This document shows positions 1 through 9,686 of a stretch of DNA of 64,000 nt, in pieces. Position 1 is the first letter of the stretch; each line of letters starts with the position of its first letter. Source of the DNA: Sphingomicrobium sp. (GTDB taxonomy: Bacteria; Pseudomonadota; Alphaproteobacteria; Sphingomonadales; Sphingomonadaceae). Location: the NCBI GenBank assembly GCA_025450755.1, contig JANWLR010000042.1, forward strand, positions 1 to 64,000, read 5' to 3'. Position numbers and translations under genes: made by a program. Below the pieces are notes generated by a model that was not told the origin of the DNA, ran no database searches, and saw only the letters and a program-made list of their open reading frames with translations.

Positions 1-393
1 CACTTCGACAGTGAGATCCAGATCGGTGCGCTCGCCAATATGAAGTGGACCGAGATCAAGCCGCAGGTCGACGAGGTCGAGGTCCCGGACGGCAAGAAGA
101 TCATTGTTCTTTCGAAGGGCCGCCTGGTGAACCTCGGCAATGCCACGGGTCACCCGAGCTTCGTGATGAGCTCGAGCTTCACCAACCAAGTGCTGGCTCA
201 GATCGAGCTTTTCACCAAGGGCGATCAGTACAAGAACGACGTCTATGTGCTTCCGAAGCACCTCGACGAGAAGGTCGCGCGACTGCACCTCGATAAGCTC
301 GGCGTGAAGCTGACGAAGCTGAACGACAAGCAGGCCAATTACATCGGGGTCTCGGCTGAAGGGCCCTTTAAGCCCGATCATTACCGCTACTGA
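1..393 (+). CDS. ahcY: Adenosylhomocysteinase (S-adenosyl-L-homocysteine hydrolase), C-terminal part, truncated by window start
   Basis: Open frame continues to base 1; C-terminus ...[31 protein letters not shown]...[28 protein letters not shown] is the characteristic AhcY end. Confidence 0.97.
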
Positions 394-1971
394 TCAGGAG
401 TCTGCGACGGCCCCCAGGGTCTCGCGCAAGGGCCCCAGCCATTCCGCATAGGGCTTCCATCTGCCGATGCCGCTGCGATTGAGCGGCCGGCGGACCTGCT
501 CTGCGCTCGGTGTGCGGACCGTGCGATCGGATTCGTAAAAGCTGAGCAGATCATCCGTCCATTCGAGACCCAAATATTCGAGCGCTTTGCGCAACTCCGT
601 CTCGGGCGCGTCAATCAGAGTCTCGTAGCGAATGCTGCAGATGAGGTCCGGCGCGGCTGCACCCAAATGATCCATCAGACGCGTGTAATCGACGCAAGCG
701 CGCGCTTGATGCACGAGGTCAAACGATGCCGCATGGGCCGAGCCGAAGTGGTGCGTATAGTTCGAGAAGCAGCAATCCATCGCGTTGCGGCGAATCTCGA
801 TAAAGCGGGCCTGCGGCAGGATTTCGCGGATGAAAAGGATGTCGCTCCAGTTCGAGGGCATCTTGTCGATGAAAAAAGGCGCGTCGCTGCGTCGATGGTC
901 TGTCGAGCGCCGTAGATATTCCGCTCCCAACGCGGGTTTCTCCTCGGCCGAAAGGCGCGAGATATATTGCGGAACCGTCAGCGGCCCGCGTCGCATGTGC
1001 ATCTCGAGCGACGCTCGCATGAGCGCCCGAACATAGGGGAGCTCACCGGTCGCCTCGATCTCGGGATGGCAACTGAGTATCTGCTCGAGCAGCGTGGAGC
1101 CGGAGCGCGGCAAGCTGACCAGGAAAATGGGAATTGGTCCGGTGCTTTGCGCGGGCATGTCCAATCGCCCGACCGGAATCATTCGAATGAATTCATCGAC
1201 CTCGCTTGAGAGCTCGCTCGGATCATATTTGATGAGCTCGGCGCGGATCCGGTTGCCCTCACCATAATGGCTGAATGCTCGTTCATACTCTCCGCGGTCA
1301 TGCCATCCGCGGCCGAGCGCCATGTGCAGAGGCTCGACATTCAGGATATCGACGGCGCGCCCGACCTCCCTCTCCATGATGCACATATCTTCGTCCGTGA
1401 GGATTTTCGACTTGATGTCGGCGAGGCCCCACCAGGCCTCGCCGCGCTCGGGATCGTCCTCGATCACGTGTCGGTAAGCGGCGATCGCTTCGTCCGTTCG
1501 CCCGGCGAAGCGCAGGCTGTGACCGTAGGTGATCCAATGCTGCGCCTCAGCACGGGAATCCGCAACGACGCTTCGATATGCTTCGATCGAATCTTCGGAG
1601 CGGCCCAACCGGTCGAGAATCGAGGCTCGTGTGGCTCTCAAGGAGAGGTCGTCGAAACTCTTTTCGAGCTGCGTGAAGGCCGCCAGTGCTTCGCTGAGCC
1701 GATCCTGCCTGAACAATGTGATTGCGAGGCTTCGTTGCACATCGAAGGAGTTGGTCCCGAAGGAAATCGCTCGCCGAAGAAACTGCTCGGCCTGGACGAA
1801 GGCGCCTGTCTCCAATGCAATTTCGCCAAGCAGCGCCAGGCCGCGAGGTTCGTCGCGGTGCTCCCGCAAATGCTGAATGAGCACCATCGAGGCAGCGTCA
1901 TTGTTCTTTTCGCGAAAGAGCCGCTCGGCCTCGGTCAATCGAGGATAGGCTCTTACGCTTGTAGAAATCAC
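394..1971 (-). CDS. TPR-repeat sulfotransferase family protein
   Basis: 525 aa; N-terminal TPR-like helices, then PAPS-binding type motif PIFLVSLPRSGSTLLEQIL and a downstream RRNAMDCCFSNY region typical of sulfotransferases. Confidence 0.88.
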   Translation of the reverse strand: MISTSVRAYPRLTEAERLFREKNNDAASMVLIQHLREHRDEPRGLALLGEIALETGAFVQAEQFLRRAISFGTNSFDVQRSLAITLFRQDRLSEALAAFTQLEKSFDDLSLRATRASILDRLGRSEDSIEAYRSVVADSRAEAQHWITYGHSLRFAGRTDEAIAAYRHVIEDDPERGEAWWGLADIKSKILTDEDMCIMEREVGRAVDILNVEPLHMALGRGWHDRGEYERAFSHYGEGNRIRAELIKYDPSELSSEVDEFIRMIPVGRLDMPAQSTGPIPIFLVSLPRSGSTLLEQILSCHPEIEATGELPYVRALMRASLEMHMRRGPLTVPQYISRLSAEEKPALGAEYLRRSTDHRRSDAPFFIDKMPSNWSDILFIREILPQARFIEIRRNAMDCCFSNYTHHFGSAHAASFDLVHQARACVDYTRLMDHLGAAAPDLICSIRYETLIDAPETELRKALEYLGLEWTDDLLSFYESDRTVRTPSAEQVRRPLNRSGIGRWKPYAEWLGPLRETLGAVADS

Positions 1972-1980
1972 CGGGATTCC

Positions 1981-2772
1981 TCAGGTGTAGCCGAGGAGTT
2001 GGCGAAGGCCAGGCGCAGCATAGTCGACAAGCCGCCGATGCCTATCGGGCAATTTGTCGGGGATTTCCAGAGCGACGCCGGTGAGGTTCTCCCGAGCCGT
2101 ACCGCTGCGCCGCCGGTCAGAGCCGACCTTCACGCGCTGACGCCAATCGGAAGGAAGCGGCGAAATCCCGCACGCCTCGAAAAGCGCGCCGAAATAGGTT
2201 TCTGCTTCGTCACTCCCGAGATCCCGAATGTTTTGAAGAAGGTCTTCGTATCGGACCGGGTACACGTTCGATGAGCCGAGCCAGGCGGCCACGTTCAGGT
2301 CGTACATATCGGCGAGCTTCGGCGCCTTCGTATGGATTCCGAAGATCATCAGCGACAGAAGCTCGTCGACCGTAAGCTTGCCTTCCTTCAAATAATCGAC
2401 GTTCCCCTGAAACTCCTCCGACAAGTAGAAACGGGCGCGGGCAAGAACCCAATCATAGGGATCGCGGTAGAGCAGGATCTTTCGAACATGCGCGAGCTCG
2501 ATCGCCGACGCGTCCGAGAAGAACAGGTGCCCGTAGCTGAAGAAGGGAAAGTTCGGCAGGAACGCGTGGAGATGGTCCTTGAGGTTGCCCCACTGGATGA
2601 ACTGCTCGCGGTATTGCTGATCGAGCGGCACGAACATCCGGATGATATTCTTGAGCAGATGTGACCCGCTCTTGGGGATGCTGTTGAGGAAAAAAGGCTC
2701 ACGGATCGGCGCCGGATTGAACTGGGTCGTGTCGCTGTCGAGCGTGTCGCCCTTGAGTTTGATCGTCGCCAT
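1981..2772 (-). CDS. Sulfotransferase-like protein
   Basis: 263 aa; PFFLNSIPKSGSHLLKNII (5'-PSB-like loop) and KILLYRDPYDW (3'-PB-like). Confidence 0.75.
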   Translation of the reverse strand: MATIKLKGDTLDSDTTQFNPAPIREPFFLNSIPKSGSHLLKNIIRMFVPLDQQYREQFIQWGNLKDHLHAFLPNFPFFSYGHLFFSDASAIELAHVRKILLYRDPYDWVLARARFYLSEEFQGNVDYLKEGKLTVDELLSLMIFGIHTKAPKLADMYDLNVAAWLGSSNVYPVRYEDLLQNIRDLGSDEAETYFGALFEACGISPLPSDWRQRVKVGSDRRRSGTARENLTGVALEIPDKLPDRHRRLVDYAAPGLRQLLGYT

Positions 2773-2802
2773 CGATGCTGTGGTTACCGGCTGCGCGGTT
2801 CG

Positions 2803-2832
2803 AAAAAAAGGGCGGCAGTTGCCTGCCGCCCT
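2803..2832 (-). terminator. Intrinsic terminator-like hairpin after the TonB-dependent receptor
   Basis: On the minus strand: AGGGCGGCAG-GCAA-CTGCCGCCCT followed by TTTTTT (perfect 10-bp stem plus U tract). Confidence 0.85.
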
Positions 2833-2850
2833 GACGTCAAGTCTTACGCC

Positions 2851-5800
2851 TCAGAATTTCTTCGAGATATTGAAGAATATCCGGCGTCCCAGGAAGTCGT
2901 ATTGCGATGTGCCGACGACGGGGCCGATCTCCGAAGGCAATCCGCCGCCGCCGATCGTGCTGACCCGCGGCGGGCGAGTGTCGAAGATGTTGCGCATGCC
3001 GAGCGTCAGCTCGAGCCGATGGGCCGGACTGCCGAAGTCCTTGGTGACGGAGACCGCGTGGTAGAAGGTCGCCGGGACCCTCACGACGACGCAGTAATTG
3101 CCCCAAATGACCGAGGTCTGGCACAATGATCCGCCGTGGCGGTCCTTGAACTTCTGTTCGTTCGAGGATGCTCCGTAGAATTCCGTGTGCCACAAGAACG
3201 ACCAGCCTCCATGCGGCTTCCAGGTTACGTTGAGGTCGCCGACGAACTTGGGATCTCCGATGTCGCCGTTATTCGACACTGCCGGGCTCCCCGGCAGGAG
3301 GACGATCGAATCCTTCAGCTGGTAGGTCGCGTTGCCCAGAACCGTCAGTGAACCCCAGCGCCCCAATCCCTGCTGAACGAGCGCCGTGAAGTCGACGCCC
3401 TTGTTCCGCTGGTCCGAGATGTTGATGTACTTATCGTGGACATTGCTGATCGCATAGGGATCGGTGCCGTTCGTCCCGCGATCGAAGAGCGAGCAAAGCG
3501 GATCGTTCGGGAAACTCGGCGAGTCATAGCAGCCGAAGACGATATTCTGGGCTCCGAGCTGGGAGATTTCGCCCTTCACCCTGATGTCGAAATAGTCGAT
3601 CGCCAGGCTCATCCGGGTCTGCGGGAGGAAGGCGAACGAGGGCGTCAGGATGATGCTTGCAGTTTTGGCGGTCGAAGTTTCCGGATGGAGCACACCGATT
3701 CCGCCCTGCGAGAAGACCGTCGCGGTGATCGATCCGCCGCCGTAGTTGCTTGGAATTCCTGCGGCGGCACAATTGTCAGCCTCGCGCTGATCGATGTTAC
3801 CCTGCGCGAGGTTGAACGCATAGTTGACGCAAGGATCGATCGTCCGAGCGCTGACGAAGCTGGTCTCGTTCGCCTTGAATTCCTCGAACAGCGCAGGTGC
3901 GCGGAACGACGTCCCATATGTGCCGCGGAATCGCAGCCAATGATTGACCGCCCAGTTTCCGCCAAGCTTGTAGGTCCAATTCCATCTGTCGCTTGAGGTG
4001 GCCCCCGTCGTCGATTGCGTCGCCGTAACGTTGGTCACTCGAGCGGCGCCGCTGAATGACAGGTCGCGGAAGAAGGGATGCTCCTTGATCAAAGGCACCT
4101 GGATTTCGCCATATGCTTCGGTCGTGACCTCGTGACCGGCTGTGATTCCAGATTCGGAAGTCCCCCAGGCGTTGCCAGCCAGCGTGATCGCGCCTGGCGT
4201 GTCGACGATGCTGTCACGACGAGCAGTGACACCGATCGCCATCCCGATCGGTCCTGCCGGCAGGTTGAAAAGATGACCCGACATCGACGCTTCGCCGGAG
4301 AGCTGTTTGTAAAGCGTCTCGCCCGTTTCCCATTGGAATAGATAGTCCGCTTGCGCCGGCGTGAAGTGCCCGAAGAGGAAGTTCGGATCGAGCCAGGGCA
4401 GATCGATGCACTGCTTCTTCGAGATCGGCGTGACCTGGCCGACGCACGAGGACGTCTGGAAGTTGGTCATGTCGATGACGTCTTTGAGGATCTGTTCGGT
4501 GCTGTAGAGACCCTTGTTGTGGCTGTACTGGACGTAGGCGTCGTACGACCAGCCTTTAAAGAGACCGCCGAGGTCTCCGCGTAGGCCGCCAACGGCGCGC
4601 CAGTAGTCAACGCGCTGGCTGGTGTCGGAGCCGCGGTCCGTCACCGCCGTCGGGCTGAGGAAGTTCAGGCCCTGCCATCCCTTCGCCCAATAAGTGCCAT
4701 AGGGATCAGCGGGATTATTGTAGATGTCGCCGGTGAAGCCGAACGTCCAGAACTGCCGCCAGCCATTCTGGTAGGTCTTGCGCCGGTTCGCGAGGAACTC
4801 GGCATAGCCTTCGATATGATCCGTAAAGTTATAGGCGGCGTCAGCATAGAGCGTGTACCGCGTCGTCGCGGGGATGATCGTCTGCTCGCTCGCATAGGGG
4901 TTGAAATCGTTCTGAACGGCGTAGGACGCCGGATTGTATCCGGTCGGGAGCCAGCCTGGAGGTGCGACGAAGCAGGAATATGCCCCGCAACCGCTGATTG
5001 GCGGCAAGCCGTAGGTGTTTCCAGGGAAATATTGGATCAGGTTGACCGGCCCGACGTATGTGCCGTCAGCCAAGTGGAGGTTACCCGGCCCACCCAGATA
5101 ATTATATTCGTAATCGTAGGTCCAAACCTGGCCGACGGGCAGGTCTTCGCAATGATATTTGCCGGTGCGCGGGTCGATCAGGTCGGCGCGCTGGTTGGAC
5201 CCTTGCCTGAAGACATAGGCCTCGGGGCAGTTGAGGTACGACCGGTCGCCGCGTGCCAGCTCGTTCTGGTGGAAATAATCCAGCGCGATGAGGATGTGGC
5301 CGCGGTCAGTCGACCTGCCCCACATGATGCTGCCGCTGTACTGCTCTCCGCCCCGCTTCGTCGGAATGCTGCCGAACCCATCGATCTGGAGTCCGTTGAA
5401 GTCGGTCTTGGTGATCAGATTAACCACGCCCGCAACTGCGTCCGATCCGTAAATCGATGATGCACCCGTCTTCAGGATGTCGACGCGTTGGACGATTGAC
5501 TGCGGGAGCACGTTGAGGTCGAAGGAGGAGACGCCGCCTCGTGTGCCCGCCGGGCCTGCGCGCCGGCCGTTCAGCAGCACGAGTGTGCGGTTCGGGCCGA
5601 GCCCGCGAAGATCGATCGTCTCTGCACCCGGGCCGCCGTTCGTGACGAAGTTGGACGACAATGCGGACGTGATCTGCGTCGACCCAGCAGCGATCGGCGA
5701 GGACTGGAGCATATCGGCAGTGTCGAGATAGCCAGCCTGCTTCGAAAGTTGCGGATCGATCAAACTGACCGGGTCGGGGCTTGTGAACTCGGGTTGGCGG

Positions 5801-6075
5801 ATGCGCGTTCCGGTGATCACGATGTTCTTCTCGTTCCCAGTGACGGCACTGTCGCCACCTGTAGCAGGGACTTGCGCCGGCTGCTGCGCCTGTTGCTGGG
5901 TATTGGTCGGCGCGGTCTGCGGGGGTTTGGCCTTGGGTTTCCCCGATTGATCGGTCGCGGGGGGCGTCTGGGTGGTCGGTTGCGCGAATGCCGGCGTCGC
6001 AATTATGAGTGCGCCGATCGACGCACCGATGAGAAGCTGCGCACGCAGATTAGCTGCAGTTGGGTTGGCTGCCAT
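2851..6075 (-). CDS. TonB-dependent receptor (plug + beta-barrel)
   Basis: 1074 aa; signal peptide MAANPTAANLRAQLLIGASIGALIIATPAFAQ, plug motifs NIVITGTRIRQPEF..., LVLLNGRRAG, SSIYGSDAVAGVVNLITK, C-terminal aromatic ...GRRIFFNISKKF. Confidence 0.95.
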   Translation of the reverse strand: MAANPTAANLRAQLLIGASIGALIIATPAFAQPTTQTPPATDQSGKPKAKPPQTAPTNTQQQAQQPAQVPATGGDSAVTGNEKNIVITGTRIRQPEFTSPDPVSLIDPQLSKQAGYLDTADMLQSSPIAAGSTQITSALSSNFVTNGGPGAETIDLRGLGPNRTLVLLNGRRAGPAGTRGGVSSFDLNVLPQSIVQRVDILKTGASSIYGSDAVAGVVNLITKTDFNGLQIDGFGSIPTKRGGEQYSGSIMWGRSTDRGHILIALDYFHQNELARGDRSYLNCPEAYVFRQGSNQRADLIDPRTGKYHCEDLPVGQVWTYDYEYNYLGGPGNLHLADGTYVGPVNLIQYFPGNTYGLPPISGCGAYSCFVAPPGWLPTGYNPASYAVQNDFNPYASEQTIIPATTRYTLYADAAYNFTDHIEGYAEFLANRRKTYQNGWRQFWTFGFTGDIYNNPADPYGTYWAKGWQGLNFLSPTAVTDRGSDTSQRVDYWRAVGGLRGDLGGLFKGWSYDAYVQYSHNKGLYSTEQILKDVIDMTNFQTSSCVGQVTPISKKQCIDLPWLDPNFLFGHFTPAQADYLFQWETGETLYKQLSGEASMSGHLFNLPAGPIGMAIGVTARRDSIVDTPGAITLAGNAWGTSESGITAGHEVTTEAYGEIQVPLIKEHPFFRDLSFSGAARVTNVTATQSTTGATSSDRWNWTYKLGGNWAVNHWLRFRGTYGTSFRAPALFEEFKANETSFVSARTIDPCVNYAFNLAQGNIDQREADNCAAAGIPSNYGGGSITATVFSQGGIGVLHPETSTAKTASIILTPSFAFLPQTRMSLAIDYFDIRVKGEISQLGAQNIVFGCYDSPSFPNDPLCSLFDRGTNGTDPYAISNVHDKYINISDQRNKGVDFTALVQQGLGRWGSLTVLGNATYQLKDSIVLLPGSPAVSNNGDIGDPKFVGDLNVTWKPHGGWSFLWHTEFYGASSNEQKFKDRHGGSLCQTSVIWGNYCVVVRVPATFYHAVSVTKDFGSPAHRLELTLGMRNIFDTRPPRVSTIGGGGLPSEIGPVVGTSQYDFLGRRIFFNISKKF

Positions 6076-6440: not shown

Positions 6441-9400
6441 ATGCGTGCTTTCGGTAGCGTTTCTCGTTTCTCATTCTCAGTTTCGGCAGTCGCTCTTAGC
6501 GCCGCGTTCGCCTCACCGGCACTAGCCCAGTCGGAGCAGACGCAGGTCCAGGCGCAGCAGGCCAATACAGCCCAAGCGTGCGCCAGCATTACCGATCCAG
6601 CAAAGCATTCGGCCTGCATCGAGACCAAGGCGACACAGGCGCCGCACGCCGCTGCGCAGGATCAGGGCCAGATCGTCATCACCGGTTCGCGAATTGCACG
6701 GCGCGAGAACCAAACGGCATCGCCGGTCGAGATCATCTCCTCCAAGGACATCGAGGCGCGCGGCTTCCAGACGGTTGCCCAGGCGCTCAACGAACAACCT
6801 TCGTTCGGCGTCCCGGGTGCATCGCCGGTGGGTTTCAATCAGTCGGGCTTCGGCGCCGGCCAAAGCTTCGTCGACTTCCTTGGCCTCGGATCGCAGCGCA
6901 CGCTGACGCTCGTCAACGGCCGCCGCTTTGTCAGCTCGAACACGTCATCGATTTTCGGACCGACCGGCGAGGGCGGAAGCCAGGTCGACCTCAATGTCAT
7001 TCCGACCAAGCTGGTCGACCGCATCGAGACGGTCGCCGCGATCGGGGCGCCGATCTATGGCTCGGACGCGATCGCGGGCACGATCAACGTCATCCTGAAG
7101 CGGAACTACGAGGGCTTCGACCTCGACGGCCAAGATGGCTTCTCGACGCGCGGCGATGCTCCGGACCGGCGCATCCGCTTGCTGGCAGGCCATAACTTCG
7201 CCGACGGACGAGGAAACATCACGATCTCCGGCGAATATGATAACTCGAAGGGTATCCTTTATACGGCCCGCGACGTCACATCTTCGGACGATCGCTACTG
7301 CAGTAACCGCGACAACCTCAGGGCATCGAATGGCTCGCGAATCCAGGTGATCTGCCCGGACGAGCGCATCCCGTCGATTTCGCCCTACGGCATCCCGATC
7401 GTAGGCGGCGCGGCATTCGGTCTCGATTTCCCGCTTAGCCCGCAACAGTCGAATCTGTTCATCGGCGACCCGAATCTGAACTTCGGAGTCCAGGACACGT
7501 CGGGCAACCAACTCAAGTTCGACCAGAACGGCGCCCTAATCCCGATCGACTTCGGCCGCACTGTAGGACCCGACACCGGGTTCAGCGTATTCACCAGCGG
7601 CGGCAACGGCTTCTCGCTGCGCGACGTCGAGAACCTGCTGACCGACATCAAGCGGTACAGTGGCATCAGTGAGATGTCCTATCAGCTGACCGACAACGTG
7701 CGGCTCTTCGGCGAGGGCTGGTACAGCGTCAGCCAAGGTCGCAATCTTGCCTCTCAGCCGGTCTACAACAGCGCGCTCTTCGGTTCGGCGGGAAGTCGAG
7801 ACGGCAACCTCATCATCCCGCTCAGCAATCCTTTCCTGTCGGACGCTGCGCGCACTGCGATTTTGAATTCGATCCAGAACAACCCGCTGTCCGATCAGAA
7901 TTTCCTCGGCGCCAATCAAGATTATTTCTACCTGGGCCGTGCAAGCGTGGACCTCTCCCCCGGCGTGTCGACCGGCAAGAATCGCGTGATGCGGTTCGTC
8001 GGCGGCCTCGACGGCACATTCCATGTGCTGCCCGGCCGCACGTGGAATTTTGACGCCTATCTGAACTACGGTAACTCCAGGACGACCAGCCGCAATCCGG
8101 AGCTGAACCAGCAGAACTTCCTGAATGCGATCAACGCGGTGCGTGACGCCAGCGGAAACATCGTTTGCGCCCCCGGCTATACGAATTCGCCGATCGCCAC
8201 AGTGAGCGAGACCTGCGCTCCGCTCGACCTGTTCGGCGGACAGACCAGCCAGGCGGCCCGCGATTATGTGACGACGATTGCGACACCGACGAACGTCAAC
8301 AAGCAATATGATGCCGTCGCATCGATCTCGGGCCCGCTCGTTTCGCTCCCGGGCGGGGACATCTCCTTCGCGCTCGGCGCCGAGCACCGGGTCGAAAGCT
8401 CGAACTTCGATCCGGGCGCTTTCTATTATGGCGCGGGGACCGGGGATTCGTCGCAGCGTACAAGCTATGGTCGCTCGGTGCCGATCGACCCGGTGTACGG
8501 CAAGTATCACACCAACGAGATCTTCGGCGAGTTGAACGCGGCAATCATTTCGCCGTCGAACAACATCCATTTCGTCCACGAGCTCACCGTTCAGACGGCG
8601 GGCCGGTACATCTGGAATTCGCAGGCCGGTGCGGATCCGACCTACACCGCGCAGATTCGCTATGCGCCGTTCCGCGACATCGCGTTCCGTGGCGCCTACA
8701 CTCGGGCGGTCCGGGCTCCGTCGATTACCGAGGCGTTCAATCCGACGTCCAGTGCGTTCGGTTTCGCGACCGACGTTTGCGATCAGGACCTCGTCAATAA
8801 TGGTCCCGATCCGGCGACGCGCGCAAAGAATTGCGCCGCCGCGGGCGTGCCGGCGAATTTCCACTCGCTGGCGAACGACCGGACGATCCAGACTTATACG
8901 TTCGGCAATCCCGACCTGAAAAACGAGAAGTCGGATGCGATCACCGTTGGGACCGTGCTGACGCCGCACTTCATCCCTGGCCTCAGCGCGACGGTCGACT
9001 ACGTAAACATCAAGCTCAAGAACGCGATTAGCGAGTTCTCGAACGATCAAGTCGTCGCCGCATGCTATGATGCTGCCGATTACCCCAACAATCCGTTCTG
9101 TGGGCTGATCACGCGCGACTTCAGTGGAACTCCCGCGACGAACAACAACTACGGGCAGCTGACGAACGTCGGGAGCAGCTACTTCAACTCGGCGACGCTT
9201 CGGTACAAGGGCGTCCTGGCCGAGCTGGCGTACCGCCACTCGTCCGACTTCCTTGGCGCTGGAAGCCATCTCGGGTTGAAGGTCAGCTACCAGTATCTCG
9301 ATACGCTCTCGTCGGTCGTGACCGCGGGTTCGGCGCCGGTGCTGACCAGCAACTCAGTGGGCTATTCACGGCACAAGGGGATCGCGACACTGGGCTATGA

Positions 9401-9686
9401 CCGAGGTGGGTTTTCCGGGCAGATCGAGGCCAATTATATCGGCAGGGCCCGGATCGACCCGAACAGCCCGGTCGACCTCTATGATCCGGCCTATGTGAAG
9501 AGCTTCGTCTACTTCAACCTGTCGCTGGCCCAGAATGTCGGCAGCCGGTTCACCTTCCACATCGATGTCGACAATCTTTTCGATGCCAAGCCGCCTTACC
9601 CGTACCCGGCGAGCGGCGGGACGGTCCCGTACTTTGCGGGTGTCCTTGGTACCTACATCCGCGTGGGCGCAGGCGTGCACTTCTAA
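6441..9686 (+). CDS. TonB-dependent receptor (plug + beta-barrel)
   Basis: 1081 aa; signal peptide, QIVITGSRIARRENQTASPVEIIS, LTLVNGRRFV, APIYGSDAIAGTINVILKRNYEG, terminal barrel strand ...YIRVGAGVHF. Confidence 0.95.
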   Translation: MRAFGSVSRFSFSVSAVALSAAFASPALAQSEQTQVQAQQANTAQACASITDPAKHSACIETKATQAPHAAAQDQGQIVITGSRIARRENQTASPVEIISSKDIEARGFQTVAQALNEQPSFGVPGASPVGFNQSGFGAGQSFVDFLGLGSQRTLTLVNGRRFVSSNTSSIFGPTGEGGSQVDLNVIPTKLVDRIETVAAIGAPIYGSDAIAGTINVILKRNYEGFDLDGQDGFSTRGDAPDRRIRLLAGHNFADGRGNITISGEYDNSKGILYTARDVTSSDDRYCSNRDNLRASNGSRIQVICPDERIPSISPYGIPIVGGAAFGLDFPLSPQQSNLFIGDPNLNFGVQDTSGNQLKFDQNGALIPIDFGRTVGPDTGFSVFTSGGNGFSLRDVENLLTDIKRYSGISEMSYQLTDNVRLFGEGWYSVSQGRNLASQPVYNSALFGSAGSRDGNLIIPLSNPFLSDAARTAILNSIQNNPLSDQNFLGANQDYFYLGRASVDLSPGVSTGKNRVMRFVGGLDGTFHVLPGRTWNFDAYLNYGNSRTTSRNPELNQQNFLNAINAVRDASGNIVCAPGYTNSPIATVSETCAPLDLFGGQTSQAARDYVTTIATPTNVNKQYDAVASISGPLVSLPGGDISFALGAEHRVESSNFDPGAFYYGAGTGDSSQRTSYGRSVPIDPVYGKYHTNEIFGELNAAIISPSNNIHFVHELTVQTAGRYIWNSQAGADPTYTAQIRYAPFRDIAFRGAYTRAVRAPSITEAFNPTSSAFGFATDVCDQDLVNNGPDPATRAKNCAAAGVPANFHSLANDRTIQTYTFGNPDLKNEKSDAITVGTVLTPHFIPGLSATVDYVNIKLKNAISEFSNDQVVAACYDAADYPNNPFCGLITRDFSGTPATNNNYGQLTNVGSSYFNSATLRYKGVLAELAYRHSSDFLGAGSHLGLKVSYQYLDTLSSVVTAGSAPVLTSNSVGYSRHKGIATLGYDRGGFSGQIEANYIGRARIDPNSPVDLYDPAYVKSFVYFNLSLAQNVGSRFTFHIDVDNLFDAKPPYPYPASGGTVPYFAGVLGTYIRVGAGVHF

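Follow-up and report, generated by a model that had tools for sequence, protein, structure and literature searches.

A conserved gene module of a TonB-dependent receptor and two sulfotransferases suggests sulfation of bacterial surface receptors or of their ligands

A TonB-dependent receptor, a terminator-like hairpin, a SULT-like enzyme and a TPR-containing sulfotransferase follow one another in a fixed order. Many genera share this order, with different genes on either side. Genes for comparable TPR-sulfotransferases recur next to those of outer-membrane or other exported proteins, which belong to several unrelated kinds. These conserved arrangements suggest, although they do not prove, that the carriers attach sulfate to receptors on their own surface or to the ligands of these receptors.

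The module was examined in a 64,000-nt stretch of DNA from Sphingomicrobium sp. (the window), whose relatives by search are members of the Sphingomonadaceae and Erythrobacteraceae. The host assembly is fragmented, has a size of 2.19 Mb and is 84% complete. The three genes are located on the minus strand (Table 1) and are designated here as TBDR (the TonB receptor), ST263 (the 263-aa sulfotransferase) and TPR-ST (the 525-aa TPR-sulfotransferase). The gap between the two enzyme genes is 9 nt. All open-reading-frame coordinates and the gene order of the original prediction proved correct.

Table 1. Features of the receptor-sulfotransferase module, in order of transcription
Feature	Position in window	Strand	Basis
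TBDR, TonB-dependent receptor ('T1' clade), 1074 aa, signal peptide (judged from sequence), Plug and beta-barrel	2851..6075	-	Pfam; orthologues
Terminator-like hairpin, 10-bp perfect stem, GCAA loop	2809..2832	-	Fold energy; homologous gaps
T-run (U-tract) 3' of the hairpin	2803..2808	-	Sequence; homologous gaps
ST263, predicted SULT-like PAPS-dependent sulfotransferase, 263 aa	1981..2772	-	Motifs, AF2 fold
TPR-ST, 525 aa, GTG start, N-terminal TPRs and C-terminal Sulfotransfer_3	394..1971	-	Pfam; PDB relatives

Components and conservation of the module

TBDR is a Plug and beta-barrel TonB-dependent receptor with matches to PF07715 (Plug, 1e-15) and PF00593 (barrel, 2e-26), both above the Pfam gathering scores, and with an N terminus that resembles a signal peptide. 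Its orthologues are 45–58% identical and represent the first gene of the module in all related loci. A receptor with 54% identity to that of the window (genome G104, locus L027) occurs without any detectable ST263, and the enzyme is therefore dispensable for that receptor clade.

The 525-aa protein is a TPR-containing Sulfotransfer_3 protein, with TPRs at residues 34–186, a PF13469 match at 281–473 (2e-41), and the P-loop PRSGSTLLEQ. Outside the TPRs, its relatives of solved structure are mainly protein-tyrosine sulfotransferases; structure 8w5z was matched with E values of 3.7e-9 (single sequence) and 5.7e-19 (profile). This nearness suggests that TPR-ST is protein-tyrosine-sulfotransferase-like.

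ST263 had no sequence match in Pfam, NCBIfam or PDB. A profile search against PDB sequences was also empty, and the assignment to SULT-like enzymes therefore rests on fold and motifs. The latter include the P-loop PKSGSHLL and YRDPYDW; residues P33, K34 and G36 (P-loop), H82, and R103, as well as GHL and RDP..W, are invariant in 65 orthologues. The AF2 model obtained with the 65-sequence alignment had a pLDDT of 92.4 and a pTM of 0.89 (pLDDT was 64 in an earlier model from 9 sequences). The best 50 matches of this model in a Foldseek search against PDB were all sulfotransferase-fold proteins, including mouse SULT7A1, SULT2A1, estrogen sulfotransferase, plant SOTs, StaL, Teg14, and retinol dehydratase. 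The SULT fold was thus recognized by AF2 and Foldseek, and motifs and modelled fold together confirm ST263 as a predicted sulfotransferase. ST263 does not belong to Sulfotransfer_1 (PF00685): it had no match, and the best orthologue scored 18.4 bits against a cut-off of 22. Weak sub-threshold matches occurred in two orthologues only (PF00685, 0.0016; PF03567, 0.007). Judged from its position relative to strand and helix, H82 is probably the SULT catalytic histidine. The canonical serine eight residues after the arginine is replaced by Ala111, nearly invariant in the 65 orthologues, at what we take to be the place of the PAP-binding serine of canonical SULTs.

The original prediction had proposed a survey for conservation of the gene association and named its absence as an objection; this objection clearly fails, as the order of receptor and ST263 is kept. 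ST263 is present in 8 others of 150 genomes of the family; an orthologous receptor is located directly upstream in all eight, and TPR-ST is the third gene in seven. In several of these genomes the module genes overlap by 4 nt or nearly touch. When 84,980 species genomes were scanned, 205 relatives turned up, and 79 loci were retrieved. The carriers include Sphingopyxis, Sphingomonas, Qipengyuania, Erythrobacter, Croceicoccus, Aurantiacibacter and a Hyphomonadaceae MAG among alphaproteobacteria, and Idiomarina, Pseudidiomarina, Arsukibacterium and Woeseiaceae among gammaproteobacteria. In 74 of 77 assessable named loci from these two proteobacterial classes, the gene immediately upstream of the ST263 orthologue encodes a receptor of the same clade (a hand count that leaves out two contig-end loci, with L117 judged by eye). 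TPR-ST comes after ST263 in 46 junctions, while in 9 gammaproteobacterial loci ST263 is followed by a Trp halogenase (PF04820, 1e-131 in the one tested). Both the order and the orientation of the genes are strictly conserved, and the flanking genes differ between genera. No recurring biosynthetic, catabolic, or glycan-synthesis genes were found around the module. Distances between receptors correlate with those between ST263 (Mantel r 0.86) and TPR-ST proteins (0.92), values that shared descent alone could also give. They suggest that receptor and enzymes are co-inherited, in part through shared ancestry.

Several features of the neighbourhood were recorded as well. The C terminus of an adenosylhomocysteinase, identified by eye, is encoded at 1–393 (+) of the window and abuts the convergent stop of TPR-ST without any spacer. 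An adenosylhomocysteinase-like neighbour also adjoins the module in locus L017 (5820–7415). On the other side, a divergent second TonB receptor (6441–9686, +), which belongs to a different branch, separates the module from a histidine kinase gene. It looks inserted, since in L017 the histidine kinase comes straight after the module. Relatives of this second receptor adjoin the module in L019 and L022.

TPR-sulfotransferases beside receptors and other surface proteins

Sequence rank was used to choose forty other TPR-sulfotransferase loci of the family, and a TonB receptor adjoins the enzyme in 36 of them. BLAST with the receptors of the window found none of these, since it misses other receptor classes; the count of 36 was obtained with class-suited profiles, and it overturned the reading that TPR-ST paralogues do not adjoin receptors. 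The partners belong to several unrelated receptor classes and occur in both gene orders. Most of the 36 loci have the order enzyme–receptor (class A) and the others receptor–enzyme (class B), besides one divergent and one convergent pair. At a receptor density of 8–16 per Mb, chance adjacency is about 3%, so that the observed frequency is about 30 times that expected; the binomial p of about 1e-50 overstates the surprise, as the loci are related. The second TPR-sulfotransferase of the same genome (contig 88, L025) likewise has a receptor neighbour. The adjacency was also seen in other families of alphaproteobacteria and beyond, while relatives in several further families are not located beside receptors. 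Two tandem, diverged TPR-sulfotransferases on the contig of the window (L024, 7253–11184; 121–125 kb of C42) lack a nearby receptor, which sets them apart from the other members of the family.

On annotated plasmids, TPR-sulfotransferases were found beside TonB receptors (in one case one gene apart), autotransporters, a cadherin-domain adhesin, and a porin; 6 of 16 such cases had no adjoining surface protein. A Novosphingobium plasmid carries a sterol desaturase gene between receptor and TPR-ST. A plasmid of Comamonas endophytica (L177, 1–13213) encodes in one run a giant cadherin-domain protein, a TPR-ST, TolC, ABC and HlyD proteins, and the APS kinase CysC. The giant protein is a candidate adhesin that would be sulfated, exported by a type I system, and supplied with PAPS from the same locus. 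On plasmids of Kluyvera and Enterobacter 638 (L178 and L179), TPR-ST, a GT8 glycosyltransferase, and an autotransporter are kept together, and the autotransporter is a candidate for being both glycosylated and sulfated. Further plasmids harbour TPR-ST beside other autotransporters. In an Asticcacaulis plasmid (L173, 513–6587), one operon comprises a TBDR, a Sulfotransfer_2-type enzyme, an Asp/Asn beta-hydroxylase, and a TPR-sulfotransferase.

The hairpin and expression of the enzymes

The hairpin between TBDR and ST263, AGGGCGGCAG-GCAA-CTGCCGCCCT followed by TTTTTT, has the GC-rich stem and U-tract of an intrinsic terminator. No other strong site was found in the 9 kb scanned, where weaker scanner matches are no commoner than in shuffled sequences. 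The folding energy of the gap is -31.4 kcal/mol (z -2.9). A strong stem is present in 71 of 75 receptor-ST263 gaps (66–176 nt) versus 0.64 expected from dinucleotide shuffles; accordingly, the arrangement of receptor, hairpin, and ST263 is not due to chance. The stem sequence differs between alpha- and gammaproteobacteria, and at least five T within 8 nt occur in 53 of the 75 gaps. In seven loci (L018, L093, L098, L104–L106, L128), the stem is strongly conserved while the U-tract is replaced by TGTCATAG or CTTGTTAGG; because of this replacement, the stem may there serve mRNA 3'-end stability and not termination.

None of the 46 junctions between the two enzymes and none of 26 class A enzyme-to-receptor gaps contained a hairpin, while 6 of 8 class B receptor-to-enzyme gaps did. 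Hairpins also follow 15 of 28 class A receptors and 21 of 22 same-clade receptors that have no sulfotransferase. The latter count identifies the hairpin as the receptor's own 3' terminator and rules out a module-specific device. A leakier U-tract in the modules was unsupported, since it is not weaker there than in unpartnered receptors (p 0.37).

The original prediction saw little promoter room in the approximately 30 bp between hairpin and sulfotransferase start, and took read-through as the likely route of expression. The spacing agrees: the hairpin foot is 36 nt from the ATG in the window, and the median distance to the enzyme start is 34 nt (at most 35 nt in 42 of 71 modules, minimum 16 nt), so that most loci lack the room for an ordinary promoter. 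With this distance, read-through would be the simplest way to express the enzymes and would fit a catalyst needed in small amounts. The conserved hairpin is in line with this proposal, while its lack of module specificity is not. The alternative, compatible with any choice of substrate, is that transcription of the receptor stops at the hairpin while the enzymes use a promoter of their own, which might overlap the hairpin, with no read-through coupling. It agrees with the hairpin being the normal 3' end of receptor genes in this clade and no weaker in modules. We nevertheless consider it less likely in view of the short spacing, the strictly conserved gene order and orientation, and the failure to find a sigma-70-like promoter in the scanned region, although this last test is a weak one. 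An excess of receptor over enzyme through terminator read-through is plausible; of the receptor-coupled sulfation module originally proposed, this expression ratio is the less secure part, and the conserved adjacency, including the wider pairing of TPR-ST with receptors, is the part that stood.

Possible substrates and relation to known systems

We tentatively favour a three-gene receptor-sulfation module, in which cytosolic PAPS-dependent enzymes sulfate the partner receptor before its export and are expressed by read-through. Both enzymes would reside in the cytosol, use PAPS as sulfate donor, and transfer sulfate to Tyr, or Ser/Thr, of the receptor precursor prior to Sec export. The TPR domain may hold the unfolded receptor polypeptide, and the sulfated surface loops of the receptor could tune ligand binding. 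Most enzyme transcripts would result from polymerase reading through the terminator of the receptor gene, so that little enzyme is made per receptor. APS kinase was not found in this MAG (84% complete) and is encoded in 141 of 151 family genomes; being near-universal, its co-occurrence failed as a discriminating test. Comparison of 68 partner receptors with 22 other (unpartnered) receptors of the clade revealed no partner-specific conserved Tyr, only positions conserved clade-wide, among them Y320 (loop RADLIDPRTG..C..WGHVWTY). No residue could be singled out as the target because tyrosines highly conserved in partner receptors are also present in some unpartnered members of the clade.

The main rival to receptor sulfation, which we rank next and regard as a realistic possibility, is cytosolic sulfation of what the receptor binds. 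This ligand, which could be a small molecule, a peptide, or a glycan, would be modified after its import or, like a siderophore, ahead of being secreted and taken up again. TonB receptors import small molecules, and the fold of ST263 is that of small-molecule SULTs and of the antibiotic-tailoring enzymes StaL and Teg14. The Trp halogenase of gammaproteobacterial loci and the sterol desaturase of the Novosphingobium plasmid also agree with a modified ligand. However, biosynthetic or catabolic genes do not recur around the module, enzymes of this one type occur with many receptor classes, and their partners include autotransporters and an adhesin, which import nothing. Since TPR enzymes pair with several unrelated receptor classes, and do so in other families as well, the common factor appears to be the receptor and not one ligand pathway. 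Sulfation of a surface glycan or lipid (LPS, exopolysaccharide, or glycolipid) by enzymes that are only co-regulated with the receptor is improbable: bacterial sulfotransferases often act on glycans and GT8 genes accompany TPR-ST beside autotransporters, but glycan-synthesis genes do not recur near the module and the pairing is specific to receptors, far above chance density.

Sulfation of surface proteins before export is therefore favoured, because recurring metabolic genes are lacking and the receptor classes are many and unrelated, because other exported proteins replace the receptor and a hydroxylase or halogenase occupies the same position, and because cytosolic enzymes need cytosolic substrates. 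These neighbouring enzymes of other members, Asp/Asn beta-hydroxylase and Trp halogenase, act on amino-acid side chains. More doubtfully, the module of the window may be a two-enzyme version, specialised on one receptor clade, of a general system for post-translational sulfation of TonB receptors, autotransporters, and adhesins of Gram-negative bacteria by adjoining cytosolic TPR-sulfotransferases.

To our knowledge, RaxX/RaxST is essentially the only case of protein sulfation in bacteria that has been worked out. If the pairs described here do sulfate receptors, sulfation would be a widespread modification of surface proteins, which would alter ligand specificity, adsorption of phages and colicins, and binding of sulfate-recognising partners. 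A large group of enzymes whose sole annotation is now 'TPR-containing sulfotransferase' would also gain a function. The family of each part is already known, as is the principle of an enzyme encoded beside its exported substrate. Relative to the open literature searched, the new points are the association with TonB receptors, how widely it occurs, and the module with two enzymes; no description of a TBDR-sulfotransferase pairing was found in that literature, which is weak evidence of absence as subscription papers and preprints were outside its scope.

RaxST has no TPR domain. In the raxX-raxSTAB locus of Xanthomonas, this cytosolic sulfotransferase is encoded beside the exported polypeptide that it sulfates (PMC6637879, PMC4216712). 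The present module shares with it the conserved adjacency of an enzyme gene and a gene for an exported protein. It differs in that RaxX is a small secreted peptide with type I export, while the partner here is a Sec-exported TonB receptor, and in having two unrelated sulfotransferases. Eukaryotic TPST1/2 resemble TPR-ST, whose catalytic domain is nearest to TPSTs among solved structures and, in our alignment, has a GELP motif at the place of the catalytic GEE; unlike TPR-ST, they are Golgi membrane enzymes without TPRs. ST263 shares fold (TM about 0.5–0.6), P-loop, and GH motif with the cytosolic SULT family and bacterial StaL/Teg14, but is only 13–16% identical to them, falls below the Pfam cut-offs, has Ala for Ser in the PAP site, and almost always adjoins a receptor gene. 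In AIDA-I/AAH and similar autotransporter-heptosyltransferase pairs, a dedicated cytosolic enzyme is likewise encoded beside the outer-membrane protein that it modifies before export, but there the group is a sugar and not sulfate, and the protein an autotransporter and not a TonB receptor. SusCD-like and carbohydrate loci of TonB receptors carry degradative enzymes and regulators. As in the module described here, they link a receptor to enzymes in one locus (PMC1790865), whereas our module contains only group-transfer enzymes and has variable neighbours.
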